DNA from: Elusimicrobiota bacterium
Lineage (GTDB): Bacteria > Elusimicrobiota > Elusimicrobia > UBA1565 > UBA9628
Direction: 5' to 3'
Length of the DNA: 64,000 nucleotides
Assembly: GCA_023249675.1 (NCBI GenBank)
Contig: JAHFCE010000011.1
Location: forward strand, 20,771-84,770
Both the position numbers and the translations under genes were made by a program. Under the pieces are notes generated by a model. That model was not told the origin of the DNA, did no database searches, and saw nothing but the letters and a program-made list of their open reading frames with translations. This document shows positions 1 through 3,705 of the stretch, one piece after another. The first letter of the stretch is position 1, and each line of letters begins with the position of its first letter.

Positions 1-3000
1 GTTCCCGCAGTCGTGGCAGGTCACGCCGGAGCAGCCCGACTCGTGCGCGACGTTGCGCGAGAAGCACTTTGGGCAATGCTCGGCCGGGGCTGCTTCCGCA
101 GCGGTCTCCACGGCGGTCCCATCCTCGACCCACCCCGTCTTCTTGAGGTGGGCGCGCAGGGCGATGGCGAGTGCGTGGGGGATGGAGTCCACGCGGTTGG
201 GGCCCAAGCCGATCGGCCGGTCGCCCTTGACCGAGTTGAGGTGCTTGAGCAGGCGCAGGGGATCGCCGCCCTCGGCCAGGTACTTGGAGAGCAGGATGCC
301 GACGAGCGAGGTAAGGCCCGCAATTTCCGTGCCGAGCGGGGGGATATTGGTGAACACTTGGAACGGCCCCTTTTCGTCGTAGTTGATGTGGATGTGCAGC
401 GGCCCGTAGCCGGTGCGGATTTGGTAGTACTCGGCGTCGAGGCCGAGCGCGGCCTCCGGCTCGCGTCGTTTCCCCCGGGAAGGGGCGGAGGCGAGGTTGA
501 GGACCTGCTGGGCCTTGGACCCGTCGCGATAGACCGTGATGCCTTTGCAGCCGAGTTCGTAGGACAGCAGGTAGGCCTTGCGCACGTCGTCGGTCGTCGC
601 CTCCTCGGGCAGATTGATCGTCTTTGACACGCCGTTGTCGGTGTGACGCTGGAAGGCCGCCTGCATACGGACGTGGGTTTCAACGGCAACGTCGTGGGCC
701 GTCGCAAACAGCTTTTGAACGGCGACGGGAATCTCGGGAATACCGTCCAACGATTTGTGGTTCTCATCGATACGTCTTGTTAATATTTTTTCGTCGAGCC
801 CGAACCAGTTGTTTTTCTCAGCGTATTCCTGGAACAGCGGGTTTATTTCGAAAAAGACATCCTTATCGTCGGGCTGTTTGCCCTGCTTCAGGGCCTCGAG
901 GGCTTTGGCGTTGTAGCGCGTGTAGGCGATCGCGAAGAATGGCTCGATGCCGCCGCCCTGCAGGCCCGCCGCGATCGCGATGGTGCCCGTCGGCGCGATC
1001 GTGGTCCGCGCGCAGTGTCGCGGGTGGCCCTTTGTGCCGCGGAAGTTCTTGGAGGCCGGGTCGTAGGTCGAGTCTTTCCAGTTCGGGAAGACGCCGCGTT
1101 CCAGGGCGATCTTCTCGGAGGTGTCGAGCGCGGCTCCGTTGATGAACGACATGACTTTATCTCCGAGTTTGAGCGCCGCAGGGTCGCCGTAGGCCGTGCC
1201 GCTCTTGACCAAAGCCTCGGCCCAGCCCATCACGCCCAGGCCGATGCGGCGATTGCCCTTGGCCAGGCGCTCGATCTCGGGCAGGGGATAATTGTTGACC
1301 TCGATGACGTCCTCAAGGAAGCGGATCGCGAGGCCGACTGTTTCTTTGAGCCGCGGGAAGTCCCAGCGTCCTTCTCCGGTCACGAAGGCGGCCAGATTGA
1401 TCGAGCCCAGGTTGCACGGTTCCCAGGGCAACAGCGGCTGTTCGCCGCACTGTGCGGTGACAAATCCGTTGGCGATGATCGAGTGAGTTTCTTCCTCCGT
1501 CGTGCAGTAAACGTCGGCAGTTCCAGTCGGGTTGATGGAGCGCACGCGGTCGGTAAAGCCTTCCTTGTTGGATTTGCGCTTTTTGGTCGTCAGCCATGCT
1601 TGAGCTTTTTTTTGCTTGGAAGCCGTTAGAAATCCGATCTCACGCAAAAAAATGTCACGACTCTCGCCGTCCAGCACCAGTTCGTACTGAGCCGCGCAAT
1701 GATAGAGTTGCGGTTCGCGCTTGGAGTTCGGCATGAGTTTCGCTCCGGCCTCACGCCGTAGGTAGAGTTTTGAGACGATGCCCTCGTTGAGAAGCAGCTG
1801 TTGGACCTGGCGAAGAAGATTCTTCGAGCTGCCGGCCAACCGCACCGAGCACGAGCCCTTGTGTGCCGAGACAGTGACCGTTCCATCTGCGGTGAAGAGG
1901 GCGGATAGGAAGCCGAGGACCGCTTCACGGGGGGCTTTCCACAGAGATTCAGGCACTTCCTTGGCCAGCCCATTTTTTTCATGGACGCCGAGCGACCTCA
2001 GGAAGTAGAACAGGGCGGATCTGTAGCACTGCGAGAGCGTCCCATTCCTCTCGGTTCGGCTGCCATCGAGCCCGGTCCAACCTTTGATGAGGGCGCTGAA
2101 TTTGGGAGCTAGGAATTTCTTTTCTTCATCTCCGTACATGAGGCCGATCGTGTAGTTGGGTACATTGCGTCCTTCGGGCTTCTCCTCGCTGACCCATCCG
2201 TCTCCGATGACCCAGCCCACAAGCTCGCCCAAATCACGGGACCATATCTTTGGTAGCTTCGCCTCGCCACGGGCTACCCTGGCTTTTAGTTTGTTCTCCG
2301 TTATAAAAGGGGGCAGGGCGGCATCCTGGCTCCATACCCCGGGACCGGACTGGATGAGTACCTCATCGCCAGGTTTGAGATCCTTGAGCTCCCTGAGACC
2401 CAGTGGCGTGAAGAACTTGTGGTCGGAGGTGGCCGTGACCTCGTAGCCGTGCTCGGTCTGGAGAGTGAAGACCGGCCAGCCCTTCCGCGTCTTGAAGACC
2501 GGGACCGCTTTCCTGAGACTGACTCCCATTGCGGCCTTTGCGGCCACGGCCGTTGCGCCGCCTGTCTGCGCCGCGCGACTATTGACAACCCGGCTATCGG
2601 TCGCGACGGAGATGTGCATCTGATCGAGAAAAAGTTCCTCGAAAGTCAGCAGGCCTCGGTCGGTGGCCAGTCGGACGTGACCGGCGAAGCAGGGATTGGT
2701 GCTTTCGATCTGGCCGAGAGCCGGCGTCGTGTTGGAGCTCGAGGTGTTGATGCGGTCGAGGACGACGTAGCCCGGATCTCCCGTTTTCCAGGCGAGATCG
2801 ACCATCGCGTCGAAGACTTCCTTGGCGTGCAGCTTGCCGGCCGGCTTTCCCGAGCGCGGATTGATCAGGTCGTACTCGGCGTCGGCTAGGACCGCGCGCA
2901 TGAAAGCGGCGTCCACGCCCACCGAGACGTTGAAGTTTTCCATGACGCCGGGCGAGGTCTTCATGCGGATGAAATCCATGATTTCCGGATGGTCGTACCT

Positions 3001-3705
3001 CAAGATGGCCATGTTGGCCCCGCGGCGCGTGCCGCCCTGCTTGACCACGCCGGTCATCGCGTCGAAGAGCGTCATGAAGGACAGCGCGCCCGAGGCCACG
3101 CCCTGCGTCTTCTTGACCAGATCGCCTTTGGGGCGCAGCGAGGAGAACGAGAAGCCCGTGCCGCCGCCCGATTTCTGGATCAGCGACTGCGCGGCCAGCG
3201 ACTTGGTGATGCCTTCCATCGAGTCGGGAACGGGCAGGACGTAGCAGGCGGACAACTGCTGGAGTTCGCGCCCCGCGTTCATCAAAGTCGGGGAGTTCGG
3301 CAGGAAATCCCAGTTCGCCATCAAGCCGTAGAACTTCGCGGCCCACTCTTCGCGCAGGGCCTTGGCTTCGGAGTGTTTGGCGCAGGCTTTTTCCAGGTTG
3401 GCCAGCAGACGCGAGAAGTTGGCCTGCCGCGAGTCGTTGTCGGGCAAGCCCTGATGGTAGAGCGTCATGCGCCCGGCGGGGGCGCCATCGGCGGCCGGCG
3501 TCGGCACAACCGTGCGCTCGACGCCGGCGAAGACGCCCCAGGATTCGGCCTTGGGGTGAGCGAGAATCTCGCCCAGGGCGACGTTCCGAGCGACTCCCAG
3601 GAGCCACGCCTCGGCCGTCGGGGCGTCGCGCAGGTACTTGTCCTTGATGACCTTGAGCTGGTTTGCGGTCAACGTTATTTTTCCGGCGGATCGGCTTTTA
3701 GACAT
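1..3705 (-). CDS. nrdJ: Adenosylcobalamin-dependent (class II) ribonucleoside-diphosphate reductase, interrupted by an intein; runs off the left edge (C-terminal zinc-ribbon end truncated)
   Basis: Not in the ORF track because no stop lies in the window. Hand translation from ATG at 3705 gives MSKSRSAGKITLTANQLKVIKDKYLRDAP...; ...LDRINTSSSNTTPALGQIESTNP|C..., then CGEQPLLPWEPCNLGSINLAAFV...; the left edge reads KCFSRNVAHESGCSGVTCHDCGN (zinc-ribbon-like). Confidence 0.93.
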   Translation of the reverse strand, partial: MSKSRSAGKITLTANQLKVIKDKYLRDAPTAEAWLLGVARNVALGEILAHPKAESWGVFAGVERTVVPTPAADGAPAGRMTLYHQGLPDNDSRQANFSRLLANLEKACAKHSEAKALREEWAAKFYGLMANWDFLPNSPTLMNAGRELQQLSACYVLPVPDSMEGITKSLAAQSLIQKSGGGTGFSFSSLRPKGDLVKKTQGVASGALSFMTLFDAMTGVVKQGGTRRGANMAILRYDHPEIMDFIRMKTSPGVMENFNVSVGVDAAFMRAVLADAEYDLINPRSGKPAGKLHAKEVFDAMVDLAWKTGDPGYVVLDRINTSSSNTTPALGQIESTNPCFAGHVRLATDRGLLTFEELFLDQMHISVATDSRVVNSRAAQTGGATAVAAKAAMGVSLRKAVPVFKTRKGWPVFTLQTEHGYEVTATSDHKFFTPLGLRELKDLKPGDEVLIQSGPGVWSQDAALPPFITENKLKARVARGEAKLPKIWSRDLGELVGWVIGDGWVSEEKPEGRNVPNYTIGLMYGDEEKKFLAPKFSALIKGWTGLDGSRTERNGTLSQCYRSALFYFLRSLGVHEKNGLAKEVPESLWKAPREAVLGFLSALFTADGTVTVSAHKGSCSVRLAGSSKNLLRQVQQLLLNEGIVSKLYLRREAGAKLMPNSKREPQLYHCAAQYELVLDGESRDIFLREIGFLTASKQKKAQAWLTTKKRKSNKEGFTDRVRSINPTGTADVYCTTEEETHSIIANGFVTAQCGEQPLLPWEPCNLGSINLAAFVTGEGRWDFPRLKETVGLAIRFLEDVIEVNNYPLPEIERLAKGNRRIGLGVMGWAEALVKSGTAYGDPAALKLGDKVMSFINGAALDTSEKIALERGVFPNWKDSTYDPASKNFRGTKGHPRHCARTTIAPTGTIAIAAGLQGGGIEPFFAIAYTRYNAKALEALKQGKQPDDKDVFFEINPLFQEYAEKNNWFGLDEKILTRRIDENHKSLDGIPEIPVAVQKLFATAHDVAVETHVRMQAAFQRHTDNGVSKTINLPEEATTDDVRKAYLLSYELGCKGITVYRDGSKAQQVLNLASAPSRGKRREPEAALGLDAEYYQIRTGYGPLHIHINYDEKGPFQVFTNIPPLGTEIAGLTSLVGILLSKYLAEGGDPLRLLKHLNSVKGDRPIGLGPNRVDSIPHALAIALRAHLKKTGWVEDGTAVETAAEAAPAEHCPKCFSRNVAHESGCSGVTCHDCGN
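1450..2691 (-). other. Intein (414 aa) in NrdJ with LAGLIDADG-type homing endonuclease domain, inserted at TNP^CGEQ
   Basis: Starts CFAGHVRLATDRGLLTFEEL; block-B-like TATSDHKFFTP and LKDLKPGDEVLIQSG; LAGLIDADG-like LGELVGWVIGDGWVS and VLGFLSALFTADGTVT; C-terminal ETHSIIANGFVTAQ|C. 1242 nt, in frame. Confidence 0.93.

Follow-up and report, generated by a model that had tools for sequence, protein, structure and literature searches.

A ribonucleotide reductase gene and its insertion

The window, a 64,000-nucleotide stretch of DNA from an Elusimicrobiota bacterium, begins within an nrdJ gene on the minus strand (positions 1–3705) whose product is a class II ribonucleotide reductase (RNR), as judged by matches to TIGR02504 (9.4e-184) and Ribonuc_red_lgC (4.1e-113). 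The frame runs off the window edge, as the original prediction had recognized, and in the whole genome it is open for 1274 aa. Pfam splits the barrel domain of this enzyme around an in-frame insertion of 414 codons (1450–2691, minus strand), which separates an N-extein (2692–3705) from a C-extein (1–1449) at the junctions TNP/CFAGHV and NGFVTAQ/CGEQPLLP. The insertion had been predicted to be a full-length intein in a class II RNR, and its frame, strand, coordinates, length, junctions and two LAGLIDADG motifs are exactly as was then proposed. A search against LAGLIDADG profiles, suggested at that time as a check, returned LAGLIDADG_3 (1.8e-20) inside the insertion, together with Intein_splicing (1.8e-13).

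The insertion begins with Cys1 (2689–2691), the presumptive first splicing nucleophile, and continues with block B, VTATSDHKFFTP (2404–2439), which carries T88 and H91 of the TxxH motif. The two LAGLIDADG motifs, LGELVGWVIGDGW (2194–2232) and VLGFLSALFTADGTV (1876–1920), each form a helix in a structural model and hold the catalytic aspartates D164 and D269, respectively. Blocks F and G, DVYCTTEEETHSIIANGFVTAQ (1450–1515), contain C396, H403, the penultimate A413 and the terminal Q414, which is encoded by CAG (1450–1452) and followed directly by TGC (1447–1449), the codon for the +1 Cys of the C-extein. All of these features lie on the minus strand, and Cys1, T88, H91, D164, D269, C396, H403 and the +1 Cys are invariant across 15 aligned copies. 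An in-frame insertion with intein-free homologues, a splicing-domain match, Cys1, TxxH, the block F His and the +1 Cys identify an intein, and the two motifs with catalytic Asp are those of a LAGLIDADG homing endonuclease.

The structural model is of middling quality (pLDDT 62), and its top matches in a fold search are the TliVMA and PI-PfuI inteins and the LAGLIDADG enzyme I-DmoI. Values of dN/dS are 0.05–0.2 in both the endonuclease and the splicing segments when taken from close pairs of copies, the more distant pairs having many saturated silent distances that say little. The endonuclease had been described as intact-looking, a description borne out by its two invariant Asp residues and by purifying selection on the domain across intein copies. 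Judged by their sequences, the splicing and endonuclease parts both look functional. A fast-changing loop of variable length lies at intein residues of about 35–60 (2512–2589), where inserted residues number up to about 26 for G148 and 15 for G215.

Asp is the commonest residue at the block F position occupied here by Cys (DVYCTT). Class 3 inteins combine a Trp in block B, a Cys in block F and a Thr in block G (WCT) and do not need an N-terminal nucleophile. Only C396 and T412 of these residues are present in the window intein, which has Phe (F93 in our own block numbering) instead of the block B Trp. Given an invariant Cys1 and the lack of this Trp, splicing by the class 3 route is unlikely.

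The +1 Cys aligns with residue 322 of Thermotoga maritima NrdJ (1xje), the residue established in the literature as the thiyl-radical Cys of class II RNRs. This residue is also the putative second splicing nucleophile, and the catalytic centre would be interrupted in unspliced NrdJ. The source genome yielded no second copy and no second intein. It does encode a second, uninterrupted RNR large subunit (L086, genome contig C10:255–1823), an 826-aa ORF whose motif SSNLCTEI indicates that it is probably a class I enzyme. Therefore, survival of the cell does not prove that the NrdJ intein splices.

Distribution of the intein and its host gene

The original prediction had proposed comparison with related genomes to find an empty site. 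Of 18 further genomes in the genus, 17 carry nrdJ and all 17 are uninterrupted at this position (read from match coordinates in G007 and G010); the remaining genome, G001, gave no close nrdJ match. Across 342 genomes of the phylum, sampled at one genome per species, a close copy of the intein is present in 16, including the source of the window, with 63–76% identity to the window copy, and distant copies are present in five. Family f10 holds the intein in 12 of its 47 genomes with nrdJ. More broadly, Intein_splicing matches at E ≤ 1e-5 occur in 58 of the 342 Elusimicrobiota genomes, many of them in other host proteins (L088 to L117 and others). Distant inteins (L057, L058, L059, L060 and L061; 31–35% identity) occupy the corresponding place in other RNR subfamilies of the phylum and end in HN or GN. 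In the open-access literature we found no paper on Elusimicrobia inteins.

The host and intein trees are in conflict. In the host tree, the window sequence falls within its own genus beside sisters with empty sites (100/100), and the presence and absence of the intein on this tree requires at least four changes. In the whole-intein tree, the window copy groups with Gln-ending copies of family f10 (100/99). A simple transfer of a whole Gln-ending intein from f10 to the genus of the window is nevertheless too simple, because residues 1–272 of the window copy group with the Asn-ending intein of G215, a member of the window's own family, at a support that is not strong (91/85). Co-conversion of the flanks was likewise rejected: the window exteins follow their own genus on both sides with no donor tract seen.

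Intact endonuclease motifs had been read as a sign of recent or ongoing homing, and the suggestion of a recent event is not borne out. The sister species lacks the insertion (extein dS of about 0.55), yet the nearest known intein is just 76% identical to the window copy, with silent sites near or at saturation.

The C-terminal residue and mosaic structure

Terminal Asn with penultimate His is common in inteins, although it is not required. The window intein ends in Ala-Gln, and its Gln before a Cys at +1 places it among the Gln-ending inteins, which have a Cys, Ser or Thr there. Splicing is known both for inteins of this type and for inteins without the His. Among the 16 close copies, a terminal Gln is found only in the window copy, G187, G173, G150 and G157, whereas the penultimate His is missing from all 16 and replaced by Ala, Gly, Val or Arg. 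The SPbeta intein of BnrdE occupies the equivalent position, ahead of the NrdE Cys, and its VTGN terminus likewise lacks this His. Because neither the 16 copies nor this intein at the equivalent site carry the residue, its absence is a family trait. By comparison, 23 readable Elusimicrobia inteins at other sites or of more distant types all end in Asn, 22 of them in HN, as read from Pfam matches whose model may favour such endings. The original prediction was right about the unusual Ala-Gln ending, and four other copies share its Gln. Its implication that both residues of a His-Asn ending had changed in the window copy does not stand, since His is absent throughout the family and Gln belongs to an exchanged block.

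This block corresponds to residues 275–414 (1450–1869, minus strand) and comprises the rest of the second LAGLIDADG repeat followed by splicing blocks F and G. All 24 alignment columns with a fixed difference between Gln-ending and Asn-ending copies lie within residues 277–414, and none lies within residues 1–276. A tree of the upstream part rejects a single Gln clade (lnL difference of 31, p-AU of 0.004, a value that is somewhat optimistic as the pattern had been seen before the test), whereas the downstream tree contains one Gln clade (100/99) on a long stem. With distant outgroups the root falls on very long branches and is placed poorly, so that the downstream clade of five Gln copies appears in 42% of bootstrap trees; the downstream tree built without these outgroups keeps the separation of Gln from Asn copies.

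A separate case beside the tree test comes from adding the Asn-ending copy of G154, which pairs in the upstream part with the Gln-ending copy of G157 from the same genus (99/100). DNA identity between the two is 0.89 over residues 62–272, 0.62 over residues 277–414 and 0.87 in the C-extein, where it recovers at the first codons. Silent divergence along the sequence starts at 0.48 and 0.30, rises to 1.46 and saturation, and returns to 0.55. A single-breakpoint scan peaks at residue 275 (z of 9.6), and the breakpoint zone mapped in this pair (residues 270–276; 1864–1884, minus strand) lies directly after the second LAGLIDADG helix of the model, just before the fixed differences begin at residue 277. 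For the family, the mean shift in identity from the upstream part to the block is −0.14 for Gln/Asn pairs, −0.02 for Asn/Asn pairs and +0.01 for Gln/Gln pairs, and the Gln-ending copies G187 and G173 resemble each other more closely in the block than upstream of it.

These comparisons show a mosaic intein: its C-terminal third, Gln included, was exchanged by recombination, the Asn form replacing the Gln form or the reverse. Scans place the breakpoint sharply for G157/G154 and for G173 but scatter it in other comparisons, including those with the window copy, which breaks at 273–277 against several Asn copies and elsewhere against others. Because all comparisons with the window copy are old and their scan breaks are scattered, we infer the exchange in the window copy itself from the pattern of the family.

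An ordinary Asn-to-Gln mutation in one ancestral intein, spread whole by homing while the rest of the block diverged rapidly or adaptively, would yield the single Gln clade of the whole-intein tree (100/99). We consider this history quite improbable, as the upstream two thirds reject that clade, the G157 copy pairs upstream with an Asn copy, and a change from AAY to CAR takes two base substitutions. Moreover, divergence rises abruptly at silent and replacement sites alike, which selection at the protein level does not explain. Still harder to credit is that strains mixed in a metagenome were assembled into a chimera: the relatives that have named records do come from metagenome assemblies and the breakpoint falls within a conserved stretch, but the Gln block is present in five genomes as well-diverged copies, for which a single misassembly is insufficient, and the frames are intact in all copies.

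We rejected phages as the source of the Gln block, since viral contigs contained no relative and phage matches reached only 24–32% identity, mostly to SPbeta-like phages. A plasmid search with the whole intein gave only distant matches. In the accessible portions of open-access papers on transfer and within-gene recombination, exchange of an intein C-terminal block is not described. Two Asn-ending copies, G170 (f10; L052:1495-2736) and G033 (f2; L053:1495-2736), differ by 10% in DNA over the last 21 intein codons, compared with 32% upstream, and G170, G033 and G148 share the same last 12 intein bases. This similarity possibly reflects a short conversion tract or a constraint on the DNA.

Proposed mechanism and related inteins

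We consider it likely that the insertion is a mobile intein of class 1 type at the radical-Cys site of NrdJ, that it cyclises its terminal Gln, and that its C-terminal block has been exchanged between alleles. Under this model, Cys1, aided by T88 and H91, would form the first thioester, and the N-extein would then pass to the radical Cys of the host at +1. Gln414 would cyclise to an aminoglutarimide, with the block F residue His403 substituting for the missing penultimate His, and the radical Cys would be restored in the joined NrdJ. Gln-ending inteins are held to splice by the usual pathway, with cyclisation of the Gln (PMC4031507), a block F His can assist this step (PMC8175363, PMC8229266), and such a His can also stand in where the penultimate one is missing (PMC5050341). 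His403 is the candidate assisting residue in the window intein.

If, instead, Gln and the missing His were marks of decay, the intein would no longer splice efficiently and the cell would depend on its second RNR. The uninterrupted large subunit in the genome would permit this, and Gln-ending PolII inteins do splice at a slow rate, which a replacement of Gln by Asn improves (PMC4031507). However, frames and catalytic residues are intact in five diverged Gln copies, dN/dS is low in the C-terminal splicing part, and for the RNR intein of Chilo iridescent virus (CIV), Gln gives better splicing than Asn (PMC4031507). We give decay little credence.

In this model of a mobile intein, the two-repeat LAGLIDADG domain would spread the insert by cutting nrdJ genes that lack it at the insertion site. 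The C-terminal third exists in this family as an Asn-ending and a Gln-ending form, which homologous recombination would swap between alleles, with one breakpoint near residue 275, just past the helix of the second LAGLIDADG motif, and the other at the boundary to the conserved C-extein.

The strands of a LAGLIDADG repeat contact one half of the target, and the exchanged block could possibly alter target preference. A bolder and rather unlikely proposal is that the block is a semi-independent mobile cassette, combining an endonuclease recognition half with the terminal splicing residue, that is moved by nuclease-driven repair between intein-holding alleles and switches target preference and Asn/Gln chemistry together.

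Gln-ending inteins and the features that compensate for this residue have so far been studied intein by intein. Here a single insertion site within one phylum of bacteria carries both endings, with upstream two thirds that are up to 89% identical in DNA, so that Asn and Gln can be set side by side in an almost unchanged protein. The family also shows that a recombining block can pass on a terminal catalytic residue, and thus a tree of whole intein sequences can mislead.

The closest known relatives are the Asn-ending NrdJ inteins of Elusimicrobia (L046 to L056), which share the site, 63–72% identity, the upstream two thirds and the lack of a penultimate His with the window intein but carry the other form of residues 277–414. 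The BnrdE intein of Bacillus phage SPbeta (SPBc2) also precedes an RNR radical Cys and contains LAGLIDADG motifs without a penultimate His, although its host enzyme is class I, its identity is 26%, and it has a block F Asp and an Asn end. Pyrococcus PolII inteins cyclise a C-terminal Gln with a block F His nearby (PMC8175363, PMC8229266), as we propose for the window intein, but they are mini-inteins in another host protein and keep the penultimate His. Two further inteins are likened by description alone. The viral CIV RNR intein ends in Gln, and the mycobacteriophage RDF intein is a class 1 intein that splices despite a penultimate Gly (PMC5050341), differing from the window intein in its Asn-type cyclisation and host protein.
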